Source of the DNA: Bernardetiaceae bacterium
GTDB taxonomy: Bacteria > Bacteroidota > Bacteroidia > Cytophagales > Thermoflexibacteraceae
DNA length: 35,313 nt
NCBI GenBank assembly: GCA_025454895.1
Contig: JALONO010000004.1
Span: 1 to 35,313, forward strand
Direction: 5' to 3'
Shown here: piece after piece, positions 6,305 through 35,313 of the stretch
Numbering within the stretch: position 1 is the stretch's first letter
Layout: the number at the start of each line of letters is the position of its first letter
Made by a program: the position numbers and the translations under genes
Notes under the pieces: generated by a model
What the model was told of the DNA's origin: nothing
Database searches by the model: none
Seen by the model: the letters and a program-made list of their open reading frames with translations, nothing else

Positions 6305-6312
6305 TACTTTTG
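6305..6312 (+). promoter_or_regulatory. Possible -7 box for the first PAS kinase
   Basis: TACTTTTG matches TAnnTTTG exactly, but no TTTG is found at the expected distance upstream. If real, transcription starts near 6319. That excludes the TTG at 6310 as a start codon and supports the ATG at 6370 with a leader of about 50 bases. Confidence 0.35.
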
Positions 6313-6369
6313 ACAAGTCAAACGGCATTCGCTAGGTTTATACCCATTTTCTTTACAAAATTACCGTTC

Positions 6370-9300
6370 ATGCAACGCTCGTCCTCGTCGGAGGAGACCC
6401 CGCAAGTTCCAGTTGACACGCAGCAGTTACTGGCTGAACTGGCCCATTTGCGGGCCGAAAACGCTAACCTGATGCGTCAACTTGGCTTGTCAGGTCCAGC
6501 CCCAACCCCTATCACCAACGGCACCAAACCCTTGGCCGGGCGGCGCATTCCCCGAGGCTTGATCGCTTACTCGCTCGACAACACGCAGGAACTCATTTAT
6601 TGGTTCAATGCGCAAGCTGATATTTTGTATGCGAACGAGGCGGTGTCAAGGGTGTTAGGTTATACGCAGGCCGAGTTGAGTAGCCTACCTATCTCGGATT
6701 TTTACATTGACTACCGGCCCGACCGTTGGCGGCGTTTTTGGGAAGAACTGCGCCGCCTTGAGAAATTTACCTACGAATGGTACATCCGGGCCAAGAACGG
6801 GAGTGAACTCCCCGTAGAAATTTCGGCCAATTATATCCACTTTGGCGATTTGGAGTACTGTTGCGCCATTGTGCGGGTGGTTACCGAGCGCCGCAAGGCC
6901 GAAGATAAAATCAGGTTTGAGCAGGAGTACAAAAACGCCATTTGGCAGGCCGTACCGGACCTGATGCTGCTCATGAACAGCCGGGGCGTGTACTTGGATA
7001 TGCGCGGGGGCAGCCGCTACCCTGGCCCGCCGGACCAGAGCCTCATCGGCACTTCGGTGTTCGAGAGTAACCTGCCCGATACGGTGAAAACCCTCCTCCA
7101 CGAAAACAACAAAAAAGCCATTGCTACCGGCGAGGTGCAAACCGCCGAATACTCGATCCCGTTTTACAACAACACCCAGTTGCGCTACTTCGAGTCGCGG
7201 GCGGTCAAATGCGGGCGCAACAAGGTGCTCCTCCTCATCCGCGACATCACCGACCGCAAGGAGAGCGAGGCCCAGGCCCAGATCGAGGCCGAAAAACGCG
7301 CGGCCTTGCTCAAGGCCATCCCCGACATTATCATGGTCATGAGCCGCCGGGGCGACTGTATCGACTTCAAAGGGGGCAACAATTTTAAGTTTGTGCCGCC
7401 CGATGCCTGGGTGGGCACCAACATTACCGATGGGGCCTTGCCGTTTGACCTGGCCCAAAAAATCCTGGATCACGTGGCCCGGGCCATCGACACCAACCAA
7501 GTACACTGCCTCGAGTACGACATGATGCTCTCCGATGGGCAGCTTCACCACTTCGAGTCGCGGGCGGTGCGCTACGGCAAAAACCTAGCCCTGCGCATTG
7601 TGCGCGACATTACCGACCGCCGGTTGATCGAGGAACGGGTACGCCAAAAAGAAGAACAGCAACGGGCCATCCTCAGTGCCATCCCCGACAACATCTTTAT
7701 CATGAACGAGGCGGGCGATTACCTGGAGTTTGTGGAAGGCGATGGGGCAACGTTCATCCCCTCCGCCCAAATTGTGGGCAGCAATATCAAGGATGCCCAA
7801 GTAACCCCCTCGGTAGTAGAATTGATCATGGGGGCCAACCGCCGGGCCATCGAGACCGGGGTGCCCCAAACCATTGAATATAAGCTGTTTGCTGACGGGG
7901 CCGATCGGTACTACGAATCACGCTCGGTGCGCTACACGGCTAACCAAGCCTTGCGGATCGTGCGCGAGATCACCCAAAAGAAACAAAACGAACTGGACCG
8001 CGACCGGCTGGCCAACGAACTACAACGGCTCAACCAAGAACTGAGCACCCGCCAAGAGGAACTTAACCAAAACCTGCAAAGTACCCTGGCCCTTAAGCGC
8101 GAGGTGGAACGCCAAGAAGCCTATTACAAGGCCCTGGTGGAAAGTTCGCCCGACCTGATTATGCGGGTGAGTAACCAATTGGTGATTGAATATATCCACA
8201 CGCTCGAGTATCCCGACCCGGCCAGCCTGGTGGGCAAAACGGTGCAAGACCTCACCACGCCCGAAAACTGGTCCCTGGTAAAGGCCAACTACCAACGGTT
8301 GTTTGAGACCGGGCAGCCCCAACAGTTTGAGTACCAATATGTAAACCAAGAGGGGCAACCCACCTTTCTCCAGATTTACCAGTCGCTCATCAAAGACACG
8401 GACGAAAGCCAACCCGCAGCCTTTGTAGTGGGCCGCAACATTACCGCCAGCCGCCTGGCGGCCCAGCAAATTGAAGACACCCGCCGTAACTTGCGCGCCA
8501 CCATCGACAATAGCTTGCAGAACACCGTTTTGCTCGATGCCGGGGGCCGGGTGATCCTGGCCGACCATAAGTTTATCGCCAAGTTTAAAGAGCACTATAA
8601 CATCGATATGCAGCCCGGGCGGCCATTTGTTGAGTGCCTCACCACCGACGAACTAAAGGCCGATTTCGTCAAGCATTTTGCCGAGATCAAGCGGAAAAAA
8701 AGCATTTTCCGCTACGAGGCTCAGTTTGCCACTGCGCCCAGTGGGCACGCTGTGTGGTACGATGTTACCTATTCGCCGGTGTTGGGGGCCAACCAAGAAC
8801 TGCTGGCCGTGGTAATTGCCCAATTGGACATTACCAAACGCAAGGAAGACGAAGAACGGCTGCTAAAAATGAACGAGGTGCTGGTAACCCAAAACACCCG
8901 CCTTAATCATTACAGCTACGTGGTGTCGCACAACTTGCGCGCCCCCGTGGCCTCGCTGCTGGGCCTGATCAACTTGCTGGAACTACAGGGCTTAGTCAAC
9001 GACCAAAACCGTGAGGTGCTGGGCTTTATCCGCGAGTCGGCCCAGGGGCTGGATACCGTGATCCGCGACCTGAACCGCATCCTGTCCGAAACGCGGGCCA
9101 TGGAAGAGCAGAAGGTGTACGTTGACTTTGCCCATGAAACCGAGATGGTGAAATCGTTGCTGGCCATGGAAATCCAACGCAACAACGTTACCGTTAAAAC
9201 CGATTTTGGCGCGGTGCCGGGCGTGTCGTCCATCAAGAGCTTTTTGAGCAGCATTTTCCTTAATTTGATCAGCAACGCCATCAAATACCACAAACCGGGC

Positions 9301-9573
9301 CGTTCGCCAGTGATCACCCTCACCAGCCGGGCCGTGCCGGAAAGCCCCCAATTGTGCTGCCTCACCTTTGCCGATAACGGCCTGGGTATGGACCTGGCCG
9401 TTCAAGGTGATCACTTGTTCAAGCTCTACCGGCGGTTCCACGACCACGTGGATGGCAAGGGCATGGGCCTGTATTTGGTAAAAACCCAGGTGGAAATGCT
9501 GGGCGGCAAAATTGAGGTTGAGAGCCAGGTGAACAAGGGCACCCAGTTCCACATTTATTTGAAGGAAAAGTAG
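6370..9573 (+). CDS. Soluble histidine kinase with six PAS domains
   Basis: This 1067-residue sensor kinase has no membrane segment or signal peptide, so it senses inside the cell. In order: a short coiled segment (20-45), PAS1 (68-172), three closely similar PAS units (184-300, 304-420, 424-538), a coiled coil (544-582), PAS5 (584-695), PAS6 (700-827), a HisKA dimerisation domain with His854 in VVSHNLRAP, and an HATPase domain (956-1067) with the N box NLISNAIKY and the G boxes DNGLGMD and GKGMGLYLV. PAS2-4 share an AIPD-I-MN opening and an RYFESRAVR..-LRIVRDITDR ending, which shows internal duplication. It lacks a receiver domain. The frame is open from a TTG at 6310, but the ATG at 6370 is preferred. 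The next kinase copies its PAS5-to-HATPase half. The signal and partner are unknown. Confidence 0.93.
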   Translation: MQRSSSSEETPQVPVDTQQLLAELAHLRAENANLMRQLGLSGPAPTPITNGTKPLAGRRIPRGLIAYSLDNTQELIYWFNAQADILYANEAVSRVLGYTQAELSSLPISDFYIDYRPDRWRRFWEELRRLEKFTYEWYIRAKNGSELPVEISANYIHFGDLEYCCAIVRVVTERRKAEDKIRFEQEYKNAIWQAVPDLMLLMNSRGVYLDMRGGSRYPGPPDQSLIGTSVFESNLPDTVKTLLHENNKKAIATGEVQTAEYSIPFYNNTQLRYFESRAVKCGRNKVLLLIRDITDRKESEAQAQIEAEKRAALLKAIPDIIMVMSRRGDCIDFKGGNNFKFVPPDAWVGTNITDGALPFDLAQKILDHVARAIDTNQVHCLEYDMMLSDGQLHHFESRAVRYGKNLALRIVRDITDRRLIEERVRQKEEQQRAILSAIPDNIFIMNEAGDYLEFVEGDGATFIPSAQIVGSNIKDAQVTPSVVELIMGANRRAIETGVPQTIEYKLFADGADRYYESRSVRYTANQALRIVREITQKKQNELDRDRLANELQRLNQELSTRQEELNQNLQSTLALKREVERQEAYYKALVESSPDLIMRVSNQLVIEYIHTLEYPDPASLVGKTVQDLTTPENWSLVKANYQRLFETGQPQQFEYQYVNQEGQPTFLQIYQSLIKDTDESQPAAFVVGRNITASRLAAQQIEDTRRNLRATIDNSLQNTVLLDAGGRVILADHKFIAKFKEHYNIDMQPGRPFVECLTTDELKADFVKHFAEIKRKKSIFRYEAQFATAPSGHAVWYDVTYSPVLGANQELLAVVIAQLDITKRKEDEERLLKMNEVLVTQNTRLNHYSYVVSHNLRAPVASLLGLINLLELQGLVNDQNREVLGFIRESAQGLDTVIRDLNRILSETRAMEEQKVYVDFAHETEMVKSLLAMEIQRNNVTVKTDFGAVPGVSSIKSFLSSIFLNLISNAIKYHKPGRSPVITLTSRAVPESPQLCCLTFADNGLGMDLAVQGDHLFKLYRRFHDHVDGKGMGLYLVKTQVEMLGGKIEVESQVNKGTQFHIYLKEK

Positions 9574-9760: not shown

Positions 9761-9980
9761 TTCTAAAAGTCAACCTTTTCTTTTTTGCTTTTTCAGTGCT
9801 GATTTTTTGTTCAGACCTTTTCCTAAGTCGACCATTTTTCATGCTCGTTAGCTGTTAGCCAGGTGATAACGGCCAGCCGTTTAGGTTAGGCTTATAGGCT
9901 TGTTATCAACGAGATAGTTTGTCTCATCCTTACTTTTATGGTTTTAGGGCGTACTTTTTAGCTTGCGCTCACTTTTTGTC
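9761..9980 (+). other. Long, structure-prone leader of the second kinase
   Basis: No gene is seen in this part of the 407-base gap between the kinases. The predicted leader is T-rich and contains an inverted repeat, TGATAAC at 9864-9870 with GTTATCA at 9902-9908. Smaller AGCC/GGCT pairs lie within the 31-base loop, and a GAGA/TCTC stem follows. It could control translation or stability, but it resembles no riboswitch I can name. Confidence 0.35.
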
Positions 9981-11459
9981 ATGCTTCCTTTATCCGCTTC
10001 TGTGCCTACTATTGAGGGTTTGTTAGCTAAGAATGCGCCCAATGCCATTTTGTGCGTTTCGTCCCAAGGTACCATTAATTACTACCACGGCCGCGACCCT
10101 AAGCCCAGCAGTTTGGTAGGCCGCCACGTGCGAGACCTCACCCTGCCCGAGCATTGGCCCATGGTGCAGGCTAGTTATCAACGGTTGTTCGACTCTGGAA
10201 AGCCCGAACAATACGAGTACCGCTACGCCAACCCGGAAGGCCAATTGGTCTATCTCCATATCTATAAATTTTTGGTGCAGGCCCATCAAGACCAGCCCGC
10301 CACGGCCATGGTAGTGAGCACCGACGTTACCGCCCAGCGGCTTAACTACCAGCAAAAAGAGGCGGCTTGGCAAAATTTGCTGGGCATGATTAACCAGGGC
10401 TGGCAAAGCATGCTCATGCTCGATCCCGAAGGGCGGATTGTGTTGGCCAACCAGCGGTTGGTGGAGCGGTTTCGGTACTTGTACCAACTTAACCTGGAAG
10501 TGGGCCGCCATTTCAATGAGTATTTCGAGACCGAGGAGATGAAGGGCCAGTTTGCCCACTATTTTAACGAAGCCATCGAGTTTAAGCAAAACCTGCGGTT
10601 TGAGCACCTGTGGCCTACCGATGCCAAAGGGAGGGTACGGTGGTTCGATGTGTCGTTTACGCCCGTGGTGGACTCGCAGGGCCAGGTATTGGGCGTGGTC
10701 ATTGGCCAGATCGAGATTACCGAACGCAAAGAAGAACACAGCCATTGGCAGCAGATGAACCAGGCCCTCATCGAGAAAAACACCCAATTGAGCCATTACA
10801 GCCACGTGGTATCGCACAACTTGCGCGCGCCCGTGGCCTCGCTACTGGGCCTCATCAACGTGATGGAGCTACAGGGCCTGGTAAACGACGATAACCGCGA
10901 GCTGTTAAACCTAATCCGCAATTCGGCCCAAGGGTTGGACACCGTGGTGCGCGACCTGAACCAGATTTTGGCCGAAACCTGGGCCAAGGATGAGCAGAAA
11001 CTCTGGGTGGATTTTGCCCAAGAGGTGGACTTGGTCAAAGCCCTGCTGGGCCAACCCATTTTAACCCAGCAGGTAACCATCCACACTGATTTTACCGAGG
11101 TGGCGGGCCTGGTTTCCACCCGTAGTTATTTGAGCAGCATCTTCTATAACCTAATCGGCAACGCCATTAAGTACCAGCATCCAGGCCGCCCGCCCGTGAT
11201 CACGGTGAGCAGTAAACGCTTGCCCGAGCGGCCTAACTGCTTGGTAATCACCTTTTCCGACAACTGCCTGGGCATGGACCTGGCCACCCAGGGCGATCAC
11301 TTGTTCAAGCTCTACCAGCGGTTCCATCACCACGTGGACGGTAAAGGCATGGGCCTGTACCTGGTAAAAACCCAGGTGGAGATGCTGGGCGGCAAAATTG
11401 AGGTCGAGAGCCAGGTGAACCAGGGCACCCAGTTCCACGTTTATTTGAAAGAAAAATAA
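9981..11459 (+). CDS. Soluble PAS-PAS histidine kinase, tandem paralogue of the preceding kinase
   Basis: This 492-residue cytoplasmic kinase has PAS1 (about 7-120), PAS2 (125-252), HisKA with His279 in VVSHNLRAP, and HATPase (about 381-492) with NLIGNAIKY, DNCLGMD and GKGMGLYLV. Each part aligns with PAS5, PAS6, HisKA and HATPase of the upstream kinase, so it looks like a copy lacking the first four PAS domains. Over the last 150 coding bases I count about 14 differences by eye, mostly at third codon positions, so the copies diverged under selection to keep the protein. One G-box residue differs (DNCLGMD against DNGLGMD). The frame starts at a TTG at 9963, but the ATG at 9981 is the better start. 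It has no receiver domain and no adjacent response regulator. Confidence 0.92.
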   Translation: MLPLSASVPTIEGLLAKNAPNAILCVSSQGTINYYHGRDPKPSSLVGRHVRDLTLPEHWPMVQASYQRLFDSGKPEQYEYRYANPEGQLVYLHIYKFLVQAHQDQPATAMVVSTDVTAQRLNYQQKEAAWQNLLGMINQGWQSMLMLDPEGRIVLANQRLVERFRYLYQLNLEVGRHFNEYFETEEMKGQFAHYFNEAIEFKQNLRFEHLWPTDAKGRVRWFDVSFTPVVDSQGQVLGVVIGQIEITERKEEHSHWQQMNQALIEKNTQLSHYSHVVSHNLRAPVASLLGLINVMELQGLVNDDNRELLNLIRNSAQGLDTVVRDLNQILAETWAKDEQKLWVDFAQEVDLVKALLGQPILTQQVTIHTDFTEVAGLVSTRSYLSSIFYNLIGNAIKYQHPGRPPVITVSSKRLPERPNCLVITFSDNCLGMDLATQGDHLFKLYQRFHHHVDGKGMGLYLVKTQVEMLGGKIEVESQVNQGTQFHVYLKEK

Positions 11460-11508: not shown

Positions 11509-11654
11509 CTGACTAAAATCACTGAAAAACAGCTATTTAGATTAACACTGTGCAATTGGCCGTAAAATTGATTAATGGAATTAGAAACTAGCAAACCTGG
11601 GCCTTAGCGGGCCTGCCTTGCTCGGCTGTTTTGCTTTTTTGCCGCTATCAAATC

Positions 11655-13520
11655 ATGAAAATCCACCCCTGGGCCAGGGTAATGGCCCTGTCCATTTGGC
11701 TGGCTTGGGGGCTGGCCTGGCCCGTGCGGGGCCAACGCCCGGTCGATAGCCTTGCCACCGCCCAGCAAAACGCCTGGCGCACCGAACTGCAACTGGCCGA
11801 GCACAGCCTTGCGCGCGCCCAAGCCGCCAACGACCATTATACCGCCTACAAAACTTTGCGGCACCTGCTGGATGTGTGCCTCGCCCTGGACGATCTGGAA
11901 CAGCACCAACACTTTGCCCAGCAAGCCCATCAAGTACGGTCCCAACTCACCTCGGCCCAGTGGGAGCGTTTCCAAAGGGAAAGCCGCCAACTGGACCGCC
12001 GGGCTAAGGCCGATTTACTCGACTGCCAAACCCAGCCCTTGCAGGCCCTGCAAGCCGCTCTACAAGCCCAAAAACCCCAGCAAATCGCCTTGGCCCAGGT
12101 GGCCTTGGCGCGCTGCCACCAAGCCGTGGGCGACTGGGCCGAGGCCGAGGCCCATTTGGCCCAAGGCCAGCAAGCCCTAGCCGCCCTCCCGCGCGACACG
12201 GTGGCCCGGATAGCCCTGCTGGTGGGGCAAGCCCAGGTAAAATTAGGGCAAAAGCAGCGTTATCAGGCCCTCAAACTGGCCGAACAGGCCGCTCCCTACT
12301 TACTGGGCGAATTGGCCCCCGGCCCCGGGCTTACCCAGGCCAAGTTGGACCTGGGCCGGTTATACCACCAGTTGGGCCACTCGCCTAAGGCCCTCAACTT
12401 GCTGCGGGGCGGGCTGGCCGGTGCTCCCACCGCCGAGCTACCCCAGTGGAGCCAACTGCTTACCGAGTTGTGCCAGACCGACCGCCGCTACTGCGCCTTG
12501 TTGGGCACAGTGAACCAGCGGCTGCTGCCCCAGCAAGCCCAAACCATTGAGAGTTTGGAAGAAAAAATAGCCCACCAGGCCGCCGAGGACAAGCGGGCTT
12601 TTGCCCAACTGCGCGAAAGCTACGCTCGCGTGCGCAACGAGCAGGCCTTCTACCTCACCCTTGTGGTGGCCATATTGGCTTCGGTTTTTGGGTATTTGAT
12701 GTGGAAGTCGCGCCGACGCAACAAAAATCTCAACCGCCAACTGAACCTCCAGCAAGGGGAGATTTTAGCCAAAAATCATACCCTGAGTGAGCAAAACCAA
12801 CAACTTCAGTTGCTCAATAACGATAAAAACGACCTCATGAGCATGCTCGCCCACGACATGCGCTCGCCCCTGAACGCCGTGGCAGGGCTTTCGAAACTGG
12901 TGGCGATGGAGGGCAACCTCAACCCAGATCAGCATACTTATTTGCAAAAAATTGGGGAGACGGTGCAACACGCCAACCAGATGATCCGGGAACTGCTGGA
13001 CGTAAACGCCTTGGAGCAGCAAACGGGCTGGCAACTGGTGCCCACCCACCTACCCGACCTGGTAAACGACGTGCTGCTGGCCCAAAGGCAGGCCGCCCAG
13101 GCCAAAAATATCCGCCTGTTTGTGAGCAACGATCTGGCCAGCCCCATTGTGCACACCGCGCCCGATGCCGTGCAGCGCGTGGTGGACAACTTAGTGTCAA
13201 ACGCGATCAAATTTTCGCCGCTGGGCAGCGCGGTGTACCTCTCGCTGGGCCAAACCACTGGCCAGGTGAGCATCGCCGTGCGCGACGAAGGCCCCGGCCT
13301 CAGCGACGACGACCGCGCCAAACTGTTCCGCAAGTTCCAGAAACTCTCCGCCCGGCCCACGGCCAACGAGCAGTCCACCGGCCTGGGCCTGGCCATCGTG
13401 AAAACCATTGTGGACAAACTGGGCGGCCACCTCACCGTGGAAAGCCAACTGGGCAAAGGGGCAACTTTTATCCTCAGCTTGCCCCGGCAGCCCGCCGACT
13501 CCGCCCCCCACGACCGGTAG
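11655..13520 (+). CDS. Membrane histidine kinase with periplasmic TPR-like sensor
   Basis: This 621-residue protein begins with a signal peptide (about 1-24, ending near PVRGQ). An Ala/Gln/Leu-rich helical periplasmic region (25-300) reads like degenerate TPR repeats. A coiled segment (300-330), one transmembrane helix (about 332-350), a cytoplasmic coiled coil, HisKA with His400 in MLAHDMRSPLNAV and HATPase (about 501-615) with NLVSNAIKFSPLG, DEGPGLS and STGLGLAIV follow. This TPR-TM-kinase layout is common in Bacteroidota, where the TPR part is thought to bind a partner protein. It belongs to a different kinase subgroup from its two upstream neighbours (HDMRSP rather than HNLRAP). The ATG at 11655 begins the signal peptide; the TTG at 11631 is less likely. 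There is no response regulator beside it. Confidence 0.9.
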   Translation: MKIHPWARVMALSIWLAWGLAWPVRGQRPVDSLATAQQNAWRTELQLAEHSLARAQAANDHYTAYKTLRHLLDVCLALDDLEQHQHFAQQAHQVRSQLTSAQWERFQRESRQLDRRAKADLLDCQTQPLQALQAALQAQKPQQIALAQVALARCHQAVGDWAEAEAHLAQGQQALAALPRDTVARIALLVGQAQVKLGQKQRYQALKLAEQAAPYLLGELAPGPGLTQAKLDLGRLYHQLGHSPKALNLLRGGLAGAPTAELPQWSQLLTELCQTDRRYCALLGTVNQRLLPQQAQTIESLEEKIAHQAAEDKRAFAQLRESYARVRNEQAFYLTLVVAILASVFGYLMWKSRRRNKNLNRQLNLQQGEILAKNHTLSEQNQQLQLLNNDKNDLMSMLAHDMRSPLNAVAGLSKLVAMEGNLNPDQHTYLQKIGETVQHANQMIRELLDVNALEQQTGWQLVPTHLPDLVNDVLLAQRQAAQAKNIRLFVSNDLASPIVHTAPDAVQRVVDNLVSNAIKFSPLGSAVYLSLGQTTGQVSIAVRDEGPGLSDDDRAKLFRKFQKLSARPTANEQSTGLGLAIVKTIVDKLGGHLTVESQLGKGATFILSLPRQPADSAPHDR

Positions 13521-17389: not shown

Positions 17390-19081
17390 ATGGTAGCAAG
17401 TACAGCCATCTTATCGCCTAATGCCCTTAGCCCAGTGAACACGAGCCTGGCCACCGCCATGTTGGAAAATACCCCGTTGGTGGCCGTACAAGGATTTGGG
17501 CTTGACGGGGTGATCCGTTATTGGAACCCTACCAGCACGGCTCAGTACGGCATCAGTGCCGAGCAAGCCCTTGGCAAGCAAATGGACGATGTGTTCGTGT
17601 CGCTGGGGGGCAGCCTTGGCTCGATCCGGGCGGCTATTGACGCGGTGGTGCAAACCAAGCAACCCACCCCGCCGGCCGAAGTAGAAGTGGTAACCAGTAG
17701 CAACCGCCGGTTGTGGATTTTTACCACCATCGTCCCGCTCCTGCGCGAAGGCGAGGTGGTGGAGCTGTATTGCATGGATGTGGATATTACTGAGCGCAAG
17801 CAAGCCGAACGGGAGCTGAAGTCTAAAGAGGCGTTCTTGCAATCGGTGTTTAGCACCTTGCCCAATTTTATGTACGTGTACGACCTGGACCAACAGGTTT
17901 ACATCTTCACCAATAGCACCGTGAGCGAGGTGCTAGGCTACACCAATCTGGACGTGCTCTCGGGCCGGGTGCAGCTTAACCAACTAGTGCACCCCTCCGA
18001 AAAAACTAAGTACGATGCCGCCGTGCGCCAACTGGCCACGAGCGACCACGAAGACACCCTGGTGGCTGCCGAGTACCGGATCAAACACGCCAACCGCCAA
18101 TGGCTGTGGGTGCTCGACCGCATGAAGGTGCTCGAGCACCACGCCGATGGTTCGCCCCGGTCCATCATCGGGTCCATGCAAAACATTGACCAGTGGAAAA
18201 ACGCCGAGCGCGATATTGAAAAGCTGCTGGTAAACACCCGCAATAAAAACCGCGACATTCAAGAACGGAACGAAGCCCTGGCCGCTAAAAACCAAGAACT
18301 GGCCCAAAACCAAGAGCGCCTGAAGCTGATCAACGCCGAGTTGGAAGAAAAAAGTGAGCTACTGCTGCAACAGCGCGCCCAGTTGGAGCAAACCCTGGAA
18401 GAGATGGAGGAGCGTAATTTTGAACTAGACCAACTGGTTTACAAAGTCTCGCACGACATCCGCTCGCCGCTCACCTCCATGCTGGGGTTGATCAACGTGA
18501 TCAAGCTGGATCCGTCGTTAGCCCAGGAGAGCTTAGACCACATGGAGCAAAGCGTGCGCCGCCTCGATGAGTTTGTGAAGTCGATGCTGAACTACGCCAA
18601 GGCTAACCGGGTGGAAAGCCAGCAGCAATCCATTGATTTTGGCCAACTGATCCGCCAATGCCTCTCCGATTTTACGTATATGGATGGTTTCGAGACCATC
18701 GAGAAGAAAGTGGATATCCGGGGCGAAGTGGACAGCTTCCGGGGCGACAAACTGCGGATCGACATCATCCTACGCAACCTCGTCGCGAACGCCATCAAAT
18801 ATTACAATCCCCGCAACGCCCCTTCCTATATCCTTATTGAGATTGAGGTCAAAGATAAAGTTTGCGAAATCACCGTGGCCGACAACGGTATCGGCATCCG
18901 GCCGGAGTTTTTGACCAAGGTATTCGACATGTTTTTCCGGGCTACCGAAAGTTCCAACGGCTCGGGCCTGGGCCTTTACATCGTGAAACAAACGGTGGAC
19001 CGCCTCAAGGGCAGCATTGATATCCGCAGCGAGTTTGGGGTGGGCACCACGGTAAAACTCCGGTTGCCGTCCACCGTTTAA
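17390..19081 (+). CDS. Soluble PAS-PAS histidine kinase
   Basis: This 563-residue cytoplasmic sensor kinase has PAS1 (about 25-140, ending at MDVDITERKQAE), PAS2 (about 150-270, a PAS_3-like fold with a PAC ending at IIGSMQNID), a long coiled coil (about 275-345), HisKA with His355 in YKVSHDIRSPLTSMLGL, and HATPase (about 460-563) with NLVANAIKY, DNGIGIR and GSGLGLYIV. It has no membrane segment and no receiver domain. Its H box (HDIRSP) differs from the two tandem kinases (HNLRAP), so it is not a recent copy of them. Its stop lies 23 bases from the end of the convergent peptidase gene. The sensed signal is unknown. Confidence 0.92.
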   Translation: MVASTAILSPNALSPVNTSLATAMLENTPLVAVQGFGLDGVIRYWNPTSTAQYGISAEQALGKQMDDVFVSLGGSLGSIRAAIDAVVQTKQPTPPAEVEVVTSSNRRLWIFTTIVPLLREGEVVELYCMDVDITERKQAERELKSKEAFLQSVFSTLPNFMYVYDLDQQVYIFTNSTVSEVLGYTNLDVLSGRVQLNQLVHPSEKTKYDAAVRQLATSDHEDTLVAAEYRIKHANRQWLWVLDRMKVLEHHADGSPRSIIGSMQNIDQWKNAERDIEKLLVNTRNKNRDIQERNEALAAKNQELAQNQERLKLINAELEEKSELLLQQRAQLEQTLEEMEERNFELDQLVYKVSHDIRSPLTSMLGLINVIKLDPSLAQESLDHMEQSVRRLDEFVKSMLNYAKANRVESQQQSIDFGQLIRQCLSDFTYMDGFETIEKKVDIRGEVDSFRGDKLRIDIILRNLVANAIKYYNPRNAPSYILIEIEVKDKVCEITVADNGIGIRPEFLTKVFDMFFRATESSNGSGLGLYIVKQTVDRLKGSIDIRSEFGVGTTVKLRLPSTV

Positions 19082-31603: not shown

Positions 31604-33076
31604 ATGGCCCAAATTTCCTCCTCGGCTGGCACGGCTAGCCAAACTACCTATGTGAATAACCAATCGGCATTGTACACGCTCATGTCGGTATGGTTTTTCT
31701 GGGGCTTTGTGGCGGCTTCCAACGGCATCCTCATCCCCCTTTGTAAAGAGAAATTCGACCTCACCCAAACCCAGTCGCAGTTCATCGACTCGGCGTTCTA
31801 TGCGGCCTACTTCGTGGGTTCCATTATCTACTTTGGCGTTTCTAGCATCATCCGCACCGATTTACTCAACCGCATCGGGTACAAAAACGGCATCGTTTAC
31901 GGCTTAATCTTGTCGGCTGTGGGGTCGTTGCTGTTTTACCCGGCCGCCCAAACCGCCTCGTTCGCGCTGTTGTTATCGGCCCTGTTCATTGTGGGCCTGG
32001 GCTTTTCGTTGCAGCAAATTGCCACCAACCCCTACATGATCATCCTGGGCGACCCGGCCACCGGGGCCCAGCGGATCAACCTGGGCGGGGCCGTGAACAA
32101 CCTGGGCACCACCCTAGGCCCGGTGTTGGTGAGTTTCGCCATTTTTGGGGTGATCAACGAAGAAACCGCCAAAACCGCCGCCGAAACCGCCACTATCGCT
32201 TCCGTTAAAACCCCGTACCTGATTTTAGGGGCCTTGTTTTTGGCCGTGGCGGGCTTTTTCTGGATTTCCAAATTGCCCCCCGTTACTAACGACGAGGCCG
32301 TCGAGATCGGCACCGGCGTGCTCAAATACCCGCAACTCCTTTTAGGGATGACCGCCATTTTTGTGTACGTGGGCGTGGAGGTAACCATTGGCAGCAACCT
32401 AGGCGAGTACCTCAAAATCACCCGCCAGCTCGACTCCTCGGCCATTTCGCCCTACGTGTCGCTGTTTTGGGGCAGCATGATGATGGGCCGCTGGACGGCG
32501 TCTATCTCCAACTTTAATCTATCCAAAACCACCAAAATGGTGCTCACGGTGGTCATGCCTTTTTTGGCCTTTGGCGTGGTGCTGCTGGCCAACTACCTGC
32601 GCGGCAGCCAAATCGACGAGCTTTACCCTTACGGTATTTGCGTGGTGGTGCTCATCGCGGCCTTTTGGGCCAGCCAAGACCGGCCGGTGCGTACTTTGTT
32701 CATTTTTACCGCGCTGGGGGTTGTTTCCTCCTTGTTGGGCACGGTGTTTACTGGTGATTTTGCCTTGTTTGCCCTCATCAGCGGCGGGCTTTTCTGCTCG
32801 GTGTTGTGGCCCAGCATTTTTGCTTTGGCCCTGGCCGGCCTGGGCAAATACACCAGCCAAGGCTCGGCCTACCTGATCATGATGATTTTGGGCGGGGGCA
32901 TTATCCCGGTGTTGCAAGGCATCCTGGCCGACAAAATCGGCATCCAGGCCTCCTATTGGTTGGCCGTGGCCTGTTTTGCCTACCTGTTTTTCTTTGGCGT
33001 GCGGGTGCAGCAAGTGCTGCGCCGCCAAGGCATTGATTTCGACCAAGAAGTGGCCCGCAAAGCCGCCGCACACTAA
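31604..33076 (+). CDS. Sugar:proton symporter of the FucP/GlcP major facilitator family
   Basis: This 490-residue inner-membrane transporter has about 12 hydrophobic helices. The N-terminal half shows the FucP-type signatures SVWFFWGFVAASNGILIP (28-45), LTQTQSQFIDSAFYAAYFVGS (53-73) and QQIATNPYMIILGD (near 137-150), and the GGAVNNLGTTLGPVL segment (near 160-174). These place it with L-fucose, glucose/galactose and N-acetylglucosamine permeases of Bacteroidota. The substrate cannot be read from sequence. The ATG at 31604 lies behind the hairpin-rich leader. The DinB-like gene follows 24 bases later, so they probably share a transcript. Confidence 0.92.
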   Translation: MAQISSSAGTASQTTYVNNQSALYTLMSVWFFWGFVAASNGILIPLCKEKFDLTQTQSQFIDSAFYAAYFVGSIIYFGVSSIIRTDLLNRIGYKNGIVYGLILSAVGSLLFYPAAQTASFALLLSALFIVGLGFSLQQIATNPYMIILGDPATGAQRINLGGAVNNLGTTLGPVLVSFAIFGVINEETAKTAAETATIASVKTPYLILGALFLAVAGFFWISKLPPVTNDEAVEIGTGVLKYPQLLLGMTAIFVYVGVEVTIGSNLGEYLKITRQLDSSAISPYVSLFWGSMMMGRWTASISNFNLSKTTKMVLTVVMPFLAFGVVLLANYLRGSQIDELYPYGICVVVLIAAFWASQDRPVRTLFIFTALGVVSSLLGTVFTGDFALFALISGGLFCSVLWPSIFALALAGLGKYTSQGSAYLIMMILGGGIIPVLQGILADKIGIQASYWLAVACFAYLFFFGVRVQQVLRRQGIDFDQEVARKAAAH

Positions 33077-33100: not shown

Positions 33101-33619
33101 ATGCAAAAAGCCGAGCTTTCGGAAATCGCCTCGTTTTTCCACGGTTACCTCAGCCAAATCCCGGCCGGGGCCGATGTGCTGGCCCTCATGGCCGAGCGAC
33201 TGACCGCCTTCCAAACCGTTTGGGGCCAAGTGCCGCCCGCCAAGCAGCCGTTTGCCTATGCCCCCGGTAAATGGACCGCCCAGCAAATGCTCCAGCATAT
33301 GATTGACACCGAGCGGATTATGGCCTACCGCGCCCTGTGCCTGGCCCGGGGCGAGCAGGGGGGCCTGCCCGGCTTCGATGAAAACACCTACGCCGAGCAG
33401 TCGCTGGCCGACCTGCGCCCCTGGCCGGACCTGTTGCAGGAGTTTGGCCTGGTGCGGCAGAGCAGCCTGGCCCTGTTCAAGGGGTTTAGCCCGGCTACCC
33501 TTTTGCGCCAAGGCCCGGTGAGCGGCCGGCTGGCTTCGGTACGGGCGCTCGCCTGCGTGGTGGTGGGCCACGAAATGCACCACAGCCACATTTTGCAAAG
33601 CCGCTATCTTCCGGTTTAG
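33101..33619 (+). CDS. DinB-family four-helix-bundle protein
   Basis: This 172-residue protein belongs to the DinB/YfiT-like superfamily. The typical metal-binding histidines are visible: His66 (MLQHMIDTE) and the pair His157 and His161 in VGHEMHHSHIL. The N-terminal half carries APGKWTAQQMLQHM (54-67), the usual second-helix signature. Members often act as thiol-dependent transferases (for example on bacillithiol or mycothiol), but many have unknown roles. It has no signal peptide. Closely downstream of the sugar transporter, it may ride on that transcript without functional linkage. Confidence 0.87.
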   Translation: MQKAELSEIASFFHGYLSQIPAGADVLALMAERLTAFQTVWGQVPPAKQPFAYAPGKWTAQQMLQHMIDTERIMAYRALCLARGEQGGLPGFDENTYAEQSLADLRPWPDLLQEFGLVRQSSLALFKGFSPATLLRQGPVSGRLASVRALACVVVGHEMHHSHILQSRYLPV

Positions 33620-33727
33620 TTTTTTTGCGCTAAATTAGCCGGGTTGGCAGCTGGTTTCCCCGCCATCGTTTTCCATTTAACGACCGGGCAAGGAAACAAA
33701 CGGGGCCGCCCACCAATTGAAACACAC

Positions 33728-34786
33728 ATGGCCATTTACCTAGGTCGCTGGGACTGCCCCGCCTGTGGGTTGCAAGGCAACGCCGGGCCTGACACCCACT
33801 GTGCGGGCTGTGGTAGCCCGCGCGGGAAAAACGTGCGGTTTTACTTGCCCGCCAACGCCGAAGAAGTTACCGATGCCGACCGGGTGAAAAAGGCTAAGGC
33901 CGGGGCTGATTGGCATTGCAATTATTGCGGGGCTGATAATACCGCCGAGGCCACTCACTGCCGTAGCTGCGGCAACGAGCGCGACCAGCAAGACGTTACC
34001 CGCCAGCAAACCGTGCAGTACGAGGGTCAAACCACGCTGGATACCAATCAGTTGAAGCCCGTGCCACCCCCCACCCGGCGCAAGCCCAACCCCGTTCCCA
34101 AAATCGCGGCCTGGTTGTTCTTTTTGGGGGCTTTGGCCGGGGTGTGGTACCTGTTGCGGCCCGTCGACTTTGAGCTTACCGTAACCGGGCACGAGTGGCT
34201 GCGCACGGTGGAGGTTCAGCAAAACCGGCCTTTTATCGAGGAAGGCTGGGAATTGCCCACGGGCGGGCGGCTGCTGAGCCAAAAGCGGGCCGTACACCAC
34301 TACGACCAAGTACTGGACGGCTACGTGACCAAAACCCGCAACGTGCGCGTGCAAACCGGCACGCGCAGGCGCAAGTGCGGCAAGCGCGACCTGGGCAATG
34401 GTTACTTCGAGGATGTGTATTGCGACGAGCCGGTTTATAAAAACAAGCGCGAAACCTACCAAGAACCCGTGTACCGACCCGTGCCGGTGTACGCCACCAA
34501 ATACCGGTTCGAGGTTTACCGGTGGGTAACCGACCGCACGCTGAAGGCCCAAGGCACCGACCAGAACCCGCAGTTCCCGAGCGAGGCCCTGGCTGGCCCC
34601 AATTGGCGCGAAGGCCCCCGTACCGAAACTTATACCCTCAAGCTTACCGACAAAAAGGGCAAGCTCTATCCGCAAAAAGTAAACCTGACCTTTTGGCAAC
34701 GCGCCGCGCCCGGGGCCAAGCTCAAAGGCCTCCGCAACCAAGCCGGAAGTTTCTACGGCTTGGAAGAGGCGGGTTGGAAACCCTAA
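33728..34786 (+). CDS. Membrane protein with two N-terminal RanBP2-type zinc fingers
   Basis: I do not recognise a named family for this 352-residue protein. Two zinc fingers are seen: residues 8-28 (Trp8, Cys10, Cys13, Cys25, Cys28) and 62-81 (Trp62, Cys64, Cys67, Asn71, Cys78, Cys81). The second fits the RanBP2 pattern W-x-C-x2-C-x3-N-x6-C-x2-C exactly; the first has one extra residue. A basic/proline-rich linker leads to one transmembrane helix (about 126-143), then a domain of about 200 residues with many Tyr/Pro/Val (a VYRPVPVY-type stretch near 255), two Cys (near 219 and 236), and no motif I can name. The zinc fingers should be cytoplasmic with the C-terminal domain outside. The frame is open from 33644, but the ATG at 33728 starts immediately before the first finger. 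Confidence 0.8.
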   Translation: MAIYLGRWDCPACGLQGNAGPDTHCAGCGSPRGKNVRFYLPANAEEVTDADRVKKAKAGADWHCNYCGADNTAEATHCRSCGNERDQQDVTRQQTVQYEGQTTLDTNQLKPVPPPTRRKPNPVPKIAAWLFFLGALAGVWYLLRPVDFELTVTGHEWLRTVEVQQNRPFIEEGWELPTGGRLLSQKRAVHHYDQVLDGYVTKTRNVRVQTGTRRRKCGKRDLGNGYFEDVYCDEPVYKNKRETYQEPVYRPVPVYATKYRFEVYRWVTDRTLKAQGTDQNPQFPSEALAGPNWREGPRTETYTLKLTDKKGKLYPQKVNLTFWQRAAPGAKLKGLRNQAGSFYGLEEAGWKP

Positions 34787-34974: not shown

Positions 34975-35313
34975 ATGAAAGTGAACCGCTTAGTAGTCAA
35001 TTTATTGGCTTGGGGATGCCTAGCTGGCCCCGCCCTGGCCCAAAACAACGTAACCATCCGGGGCAAAATCCTGAACCCGGTGGAGCCCAAAGTAACCATC
35101 CGCTTCGAACGTGGTAATTTGAGCGAGCCGGAAAGTTTCACCCTCGACCTGGACAAGGCCAACGGGTTTGTGTTCAGCACCAAGGTGGATACCCTGGCCC
35201 GGTTTAACCTGTCGCACGGGCCTGACAACCACATGAGCACCTGGATACTCGAGCCAGGCGACGACGTGGCCTTCACCACCGATGCCAAGAATTTTTATCC
35301 TACCCTTAAATTT
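34975..35313 (+). CDS. Exported protein, N-terminal fragment, possibly TlpA/DUF4369-type
   Basis: The frame opens at an ATG at 34975 and runs to the end of the window without a stop (113 residues seen). A signal peptide (1-23, cut after ALA before QNN) is followed by VTIRGKILNP and regularly spaced beta strands (FSTKVDT, FNLSHG, STWILEPGDDV). This resembles the N-terminal DUF4369/carboxypeptidase-like region that precedes a thioredoxin domain in TlpA-like proteins of Bacteroidota. The catalytic part, if any, is beyond the window, so the call is tentative. Confidence 0.6.
   Translation, partial: MKVNRLVVNLLAWGCLAGPALAQNNVTIRGKILNPVEPKVTIRFERGNLSEPESFTLDLDKANGFVFSTKVDTLARFNLSHGPDNHMSTWILEPGDDVAFTTDAKNFYPTLKF

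Follow-up and report, generated by a model that had tools for sequence, protein, structure and literature searches.

A gene close to the end of the window (the whole stretch of 35,313 nucleotides analysed here, positions 1 to 35,313 of the forward strand of contig JALONO010000004.1, Bernardetiaceae bacterium assembly GCA_025454895.1) raises the question of whether a bacterial membrane protein carries RanBP2-type zinc fingers and, if so, which partner they serve. An earlier note on this DNA had read two such fingers, joined to one membrane helix and to an unrecognised Tyr/Pro-rich outer domain, as a possible link between a cytoplasmic ligand, such as RNA or ubiquitin, and the envelope. Here we confirm that a bacterial membrane protein with one helix carries fingers of the RanBP2 type, describe the family to which this protein belongs and weigh the candidates for its cytoplasmic partner.

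Results

The gene and its zinc fingers

The protein of 352 amino acids is encoded at 33728-34786 on the forward strand, from an ATG at 33728 to a stop codon at 34784-34786 (Table 1). A longer ORF opening with TTG at 33644 also exists; the start at 33728 is favoured because in most loci the relatives' tblastn alignments start at residue 1, and the start methionine shared throughout the 23-row alignment described below is partly a product of the starts that we chose. The Pfam model zf-RanBP (PF00641) matches the protein with 47.6 bits (cut-off 27, E 9.3e-13), with finger 2 by itself above the cut-off and finger 1 by itself just below it. These two fingers are the sole PF00641 matches at E ≤ 0.001 in the source assembly (95.6% complete), and among 14 control genomes one showed a match, which lay under the cut-off. 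The assignment to RanBP2 rather than to a zinc-ribbon or rubredoxin-like fold is borne out by the competing models: Zn_ribbon_3 (17.0), DUF7577 (15.7) and DZR (15.2) all score below their own cut-offs on this protein, and no match to the rubredoxin model is listed for it by Pfam. Of the 23 aligned members, 22 are matched by PF00641 at E ≤ 0.01, 12 by DZR (best 4.9e-5) and one by a rubredoxin-like model. Pfam and NCBIfam, both searched at E ≤ 1, contain no family for the rest of the protein beyond the fingers and none that spans it as a whole.

In case of finger 2, the earlier note had claimed a fit to the RanBP2 pattern at every defined position: the core W-x-C-x2-C-x3-N-x6-C-x2-C is indeed exact, but the stretch K-A-G-A-D-W is one residue longer than the R/K-X-G-D-W described in the available part of PMC7154859. 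The near-copy said to precede it exists as finger 1, albeit with 11 residues instead of 10 between the cysteine pairs and with Asn18 one place late. The best solved-structure matches by sequence are RanBP2 and Nup153 chains (E 2.8e-11 and 3.5e-4), and the model of finger 2 superimposes on the TAB2 finger 2wx0 with an rmsd of 0.8 Å over 31 residues, at a Z-score of only 2.5. The complete set of eight cysteines is present in 23/23 aligned members, and one zinc ion per finger is predicted. Also matched by sequence was Sulfolobus ArnA (5a8i, 8s05), a prokaryotic protein with a similar finger; we take it to be an archaeal, soluble FHA-domain protein, and 8s05 to be ArnA as well.

ZRANB2-type fingers contact RNA through a stacking aromatic residue, two arginines and two asparagines (PMC6384913, available in part). 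In our own mapping of these positions onto the family, the aromatic residue that should follow the conserved Asn (position 72) is absent from 23/23 members, being replaced by K, P, T, A or R; positions 74 and 75 are never Arg in any of the 23, and the place of Asn14 is taken by A, G, S or T. Ubiquitin-binding NZF fingers have Thr-Phe after the second cysteine; here position 69 is A, G, S or T in 23/23 and the Phe needed for ubiquitin binding is missing. The fingers thus share sequence and fold with the zf-RanBP fingers of Nup153, RanBP2, RBM10 and TAB2 but lack the residues for RNA and ubiquitin, which speaks against the two ligands suggested earlier. As the contact residues for both are missing, protein docking becomes the default function to be considered for these fingers.

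Table 1. Features of the gene at the end of the window, with positions counted from the first letter of the window.
Feature	Positions	Strand	Basis
Whole-protein gene, 352 aa	33728..34786	+	ORF reading; tblastn of relatives
RanBP2-type zinc finger 1, W8 to C28 (C10, C13, C25, C28)	33749..33811	+	PF00641 25.9 bits at 33743-33826; Cys and Trp kept in 23/23
Conserved inter-finger joint, residues 29-56 (R32, V36, F38, Y39, L40)	33812..33895	+	Alignment; block mean pLDDT 91-94
RanBP2-type zinc finger 2, residues 57-85 (W62, N71, C64, C67, C78, C81)	33896..33982	+	PF00641 34.7 bits; TAB2 finger match
Disordered Pro/charge-rich linker, residues 86-124	33983..34099	+	pLDDT <50 at 102-122; highest dN/dS
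Transmembrane helix, residues 125-143, N-terminus predicted cytoplasmic	34100..34156	+	Hydrophobicity; model; preceding charge
Predicted OB-fold domain, first half, residues 146-189	34163..34294	+	Structure prediction
Predicted long two-stranded beta arm, residues ~190-258, tip N224-G225	34295..34501	+	Model strands 181-221 and 226-276; paired lengths
Cys217, predicted cross-strand disulfide partner	34376..34378	+	All-or-none Cys pair
Cys232, predicted cross-strand disulfide partner	34421..34423	+	All-or-none Cys pair
Predicted OB-fold domain, second half, residues 259-348	34502..34771	+	Structure prediction

Family, conservation and topology

The protein belongs to a conserved family of single-pass membrane proteins that combine two N-terminal RanBP2-type fingers, a flexible linker, a helix and a C-terminal domain; its occurrence across phyla rules out that the protein is a single oddity. 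This unnamed family is a new one and a new combination of known modules, with no such architecture found in the titles or abstract openings of the literature on RanBP2 fingers in bacteria. Full-length relatives are found in at least four phyla, the labelled taxa being Bacteroidota lineages, Acidobacteriota, Myxococcota, UBP9 and one Burkholderiales MAG; in the latter, both the protein and its neighbours resemble UBP9, and the MAG may be mislabelled. Within a draw of 296 genomes from the source's own phylum, four carry a full-length relative (source genome counted; a fifth match, G013, comprises the zinc ribbon only and was left out), as do 6/39 close relatives of the source genome, again with the source counted. 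From the genome collection, 22 family loci were obtained out of 78 candidate stretches. In a draw of 297 genomes from the phylum to which the Acidobacteria MAG L022 belongs, five contain the gene (two overlap collection loci; 14 of the 19 matches were partial and not counted as family), as do 3/98 genomes from the order of G079, all three of them already present in the own-phylum draw. Plasmid and phage collections yielded no family match.

In order to analyse conservation, we aligned 23 of 27 sequences, omitting two near-copies (L023, L033) and two with a cut 5' end (L027, L034); L031 (two broken frames), L007 (zinc ribbon only) and duplicate loci had been dropped beforehand, and L024 was kept as is, though shortened by an apparent frameshift. 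Invariant in these 23 members are both finger tryptophans, the eight finger cysteines, W157, P177, G211, G218, G223-N224-G225, F227, D229, Y231 and W266, and the motif GNGYFEDVY is conserved among full-length relatives. Values of dN/dS in four pairs were 0.08, 0.11, 0.25 and 0.20, with the linker showing the highest of the three segments in all four. The single hydrophobic helix agrees with the one membrane helix of the earlier note, and the 12 residues before it bear a net charge of +2 to +5 in 22/23 members: the fingers are predicted to be cytoplasmic and the C-terminal domain to lie outside the cytoplasm.

Structure of the outer domain

The outer domain had been described as unrecognised; structure prediction of the C-terminal part now makes it recognisable, modelling it as an OB-fold that bears a very long beta-hairpin. 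AlphaFold2 (21 sequences) gave a whole-protein model with a mean pLDDT of 89.6 and a pTM of 0.48, a low value that renders the relative placement of the parts unreliable. In the outer domain itself (pLDDT 90-95), residues 146-345 are modelled mostly as strand, with 181-221 and 226-276 forming one single very long hairpin. The C-terminal domain of a short-armed member (L026), modelled alone, reached a pLDDT of 94.8 and a pTM of 0.71, and the core of this model aligned with EF-P 1ueb (Z 8.7, rmsd 1.6 over 62 residues). Further core matches were 3rd4 and 2l0c (both Z 7.9), DUF2500 3q6c (Z 7.6, 66/67 residues), IF1, PAN and Rpt, while the best Z-score from the model of the 352-aa protein itself was 6.6; the OB Z-scores are modest, and values under about 8 can reflect a common arrangement. 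We take 1ueb, 3q6c and the similar matches to be OB-fold domains. Foldseek returned no match at E ≤ 0.001 for either the whole-protein model or the L026 C-terminal domain. On these models the outer domain is predicted to be an OB-fold broken by a beta arm of two strands and roughly 11 nm, a length calculated from about 34 residues per strand and the usual rise per residue, and the architecture is well supported by prediction.

The alignment lends support to both the beta arm and its oxidising surroundings through two features, paired lengths and an all-or-none cysteine pair. Counted between P177 and the tip on one side and between the tip and W266 on the other, the lengths are 48/42 for 15 members, 50/44 for five, 35/30 for two and 65/58 for one: insertions and deletions on the two sides of the tip are nearly equal, as expected of a hairpin. 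Cys217 and Cys232 are equidistant from the N224-G225 turn, and in the 23 rows both are present in nine (five of these from the source's own family), neither in 14 and a single one in none. The disulfide predicted between them would imply an oxidising compartment, in agreement with the positive charge preceding the helix. Less favourable to the arm, cross-strand covariation was raised around register sums 443-450, with no peak at the expected 449. A pore-forming beta-barrel was considered and rejected, as the lysenin and haemolysins ranked highest by Foldseek share only long hairpins at rmsd values near 20 Å or more and the arm is polar on both faces (mean hydropathy -1.4 and -1.0, charged residues 28% and 38%).

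Finger-less and arm-less relatives occur in three genomes of the L022-phylum draw. Two of the three sequences were inspected (L091:1207-1767, +, 186 aa; L088:1447-2031, -, 194 aa); they consist of the helix and part of the core, and neither has a Pfam match, DUF2500 included, at E ≤ 0.01. Given that arm-less versions exist, the arm may have been inserted into a membrane-anchored domain of simpler build, and these relatives are candidates for the ancestral core.

Genomic neighbourhood and the Band_7_1 protein

Within the window, a DinB_2-superfamily gene (33101-33619, +) lies 108 bp upstream of the zinc-finger gene and is itself preceded by a glucose/galactose-type MFS transporter (31604-33076); neither shows any sign of a link to the zinc-finger gene. 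Downstream, an ORF cut by the contig end (34846-35313, +) may start at 34975, where its N-terminus would resemble a signal peptide, and has no Pfam match at E ≤ 1e-4. A small terminator-like hairpin (34771-34783, +) sits at the gene's end, just before the stop codon; such hairpins number 6 in the window versus 4.8 expected, which is not clearly above chance. Four histidine-kinase ORFs are clustered at 6310-9573, 9963-11459, 11631-13520 and 17390-19081 (all +); PAS domains are present in three, and one has a TPR match short of its cut-off.

Neighbourhoods were surveyed across loci by ORF only, with some contigs being short. A conserved operon was rejected, since the shared neighbour groups (ABC, SulP, kinase) are large superfamilies: one ORF group recurs in six loci, the five members checked being ABC-transporter ATPases; a SulP transporter is found near the gene in L032, L033 and L113; and the source locus, L016 and L109 share grouped ORFs that are histidine kinases in the source locus. 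IF-2 and DHH-family genes (Pfam names) lie no more than about 10 kb from the family gene at L025, L035 and L109, from two lineages, with the DHH gene at least 1.8 kb away.

A gene for Band_7_1, a YdjI-type SPFH protein, lies directly upstream on the same strand, 10-96 bases off, at G079/L015, G288/L114 and L029, which represent two unrelated lineages. This amounts to 3/28 loci with at least 1 kb of upstream DNA, out of 31 examined (L020, L027 and L034 have too little upstream DNA to judge); at the other 25, the source locus included, Band_7_1 was not found in the DNA available. The source genome has its Band_7_1 gene on another contig (L057:7145-8218), where the gene after it (L057:8467-9924, +) codes for a protein of 485 aa that contains hydrophobic stretches. 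The C-terminal module of Band_7_1 varies by lineage, being GYF_2, SHOCT, PEGA or zinc ribbons (L036-L077).

Taking at least 100 bits as a strong match, Band_7_1 is present in 29/31 family genomes; G339 lacks it and G346 reaches 27 bits, while close sisters of both possess it. In the own-phylum draw, strong Band_7_1 matches occur in 4/4 family genomes versus 38/292 others (Fisher 3.6e-4, an optimistic value as genomes are non-independent) and in the L022-phylum draw in 5/5 versus 127/292 (Fisher 0.017, likewise optimistic given some sister MAGs). Band_7_1 is commoner than the zinc-finger membrane family, and in the source's own GTDB family it is near-universal (12/13 genomes, against 6/13 for the gene), so that the association is uninformative there. 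In family f29, labelled Thermochlorobacteriaceae, strong Band_7_1 accompanies the gene in 2/2 genomes and is found in 0/5 drawn without it, a co-occurrence that may stem from one transfer event. The three finger-less relatives come without strong Band_7_1. As raw counts, PspA is found in 25/31 family genomes and 3/3 armless ones, and TPM in 9/31 and 0/3, respectively.

Discussion

We tentatively favour the reading that the protein is a YdjG/NfeD-like membrane adaptor for the presumably soluble SPFH protein Band_7_1, although we infer both partner and function and hold this with somewhat less than even confidence. The RanBP2 fingers would act as protein docking modules on the inner membrane face, with the cell's own YdjI-type SPFH scaffold, which belongs to a type regarded as soluble, as their most likely client. 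The arm or the OB-fold would meet an envelope component (peptidoglycan, an outer-membrane protein or a partner protein), and the helix, linker and fingers would relay or anchor this contact to the SPFH assembly, in a mode of work resembling that of Bacillus YdjG or of the NfeD partner of other SPFH groups. The earlier idea of linking a cytoplasmic ligand to the envelope thereby lives on in our leading reading and fits the N-in topology, with RNA and ubiquitin having become unlikely as that ligand. In B. subtilis, YdjI is likely soluble and its placement at the membrane needs YdjG and YdjH, while in two-hybrid experiments YdjI and PspA made contact with YdjH and not with YdjG, the zinc-ribbon protein (PMC8581546, available in part). 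The accessible portions of the literature searched offered no explanation for the attachment of YdjI-type SPFH proteins outside Bacillus, and a search combining SPFH with zinc finger, membrane anchor and the host phyla found nothing.

Comparison with YdjG from the pspA-ydjGHI operon reveals shared zinc modules, a membrane segment, a further uncharacterised domain and a tie to a Band_7 SPFH protein (PMC11237479, PMC9239133 and PMC8581546, each available in part); two zinc modules and a membrane segment are present in the 352-aa protein. YdjG, as described in the accessible part of PMC11237479, combines a pair of zinc ribbons with an NTF2-like domain and a membrane segment. These are ordinary zinc ribbons and a YpeB-related NTF2-like domain, whereas the present protein has fingers of the RanBP2 type and, by prediction, a long-armed OB-fold, its outer-domain models matching OB-type domains in a comparison that took YdjG by description only; NTF2-like domains do not appear among those matches, which by itself says nothing against such a fold. 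An operon joining pspA, TPM-type ydjH and ydjI is absent here, with Band_7_1 adjoining the gene at the three loci named above; PspA and TPM are not on the gene's contig in 14/14 genomes for which the contig is known, being elsewhere or absent, and the source genome has no TPM match. NfeD, YuaF and YqiJ possess a membrane segment with an OB-fold and are paired with an SPFH protein. The OB-fold on a membrane helix is a predicted feature here, drawn from the matches to the OB-type domains listed above (best Z 8.7); the cytoplasmic zinc fingers and the beta arm set the protein apart from NfeD, as does the lack of an NfeD Pfam match at E ≤ 1. According to the available part of PMC2636767, NfeD was not found for SPFH3, 4 and 6-12, with SPFH8 and 9 called soluble. 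In our reading, Band_7_1 would correspond to SPFH8/9. DUF2500 (PF10694, Klebsiella 3q6c) is a small bacterial domain resembling the core, but has no fingers, no arm and no sequence match with the 352-aa protein at Pfam E ≤ 1. The protein would thus function in the manner of YdjG or NfeD, but on the features tested it belongs to neither, with YdjG being judged from descriptions.

The same architecture may instead serve another cytoplasmic client, for example a kinase or a cell-wall synthesis or division factor, with the Band_7_1 link being a by-product of shared lineages and genome content, and we give this the same probability as the adaptor reading, somewhat below even. Strong Band_7_1 matches occur in 132/297 genomes of the L022-phylum draw anyway, the association is uninformative within the source's own family and the majority of loci (25/28) have no Band_7_1 beside the gene. 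Against such a by-product stand the adjacency in the same strand and order in two unrelated lineages, the 29/31 family genomes with strong Band_7_1 and the pattern in f29, where the two genes occur together in 2/2 genomes and Band_7_1 is absent from 5/5 without the gene, subject to the possible single transfer.

An oligomeric trans-envelope assembly, in which the arms of many copies form a fence or tube and the OB-folds a ring, appears improbable when set against a single sensing arm. The FliF collar, lysenin and haemolysins all have long hairpins aligned in rings and are among the weak best Foldseek matches, and the OB domains of PAN and Rpt proteins, which match the core, sit in rings too, and SPFH proteins are oligomeric; however, the hairpin matches have rmsd values near 20 Å or more and no significance, and neither face of the arm is hydrophobic, so that no membrane-inserted barrel would result. 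A bolder, distinctly unlikely extension would see in the family the missing membrane half of a machine for envelope stress that is widespread: inner SPFH rings would be held by the RanBP2 fingers, an outer OB-fold ring would carry a fence or tube of beta arms, and arm length would be tuned to the envelope depth of each lineage via paired strand units. That the fingers bind single-stranded RNA (GGU-type), or some other nucleic acid, close to the membrane is very hard to credit: the solved-structure matches do include the RNA-binding proteins RBM10, RBM5 and ZRANB2, 20/23 members retain Asp61, which lies at a position that contacts RNA, and Trp occurs at position 74 in 2/23, fingers with Trp replacing the first Arg still binding RNA (PMC6384913, available in part), but the stacking aromatic, the contact arginines and Asn14 are replaced throughout the family.

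Thus, RanBP2 fingers, best known from eukaryotes, are built into a conserved bacterial membrane family. With the Band_7_1 adaptor as our tentative reading, this family supplies YdjI-type SPFH proteins with a candidate partner in the membrane, and its length-adjustable beta arm is an unusual predicted structural element that is directly testable.
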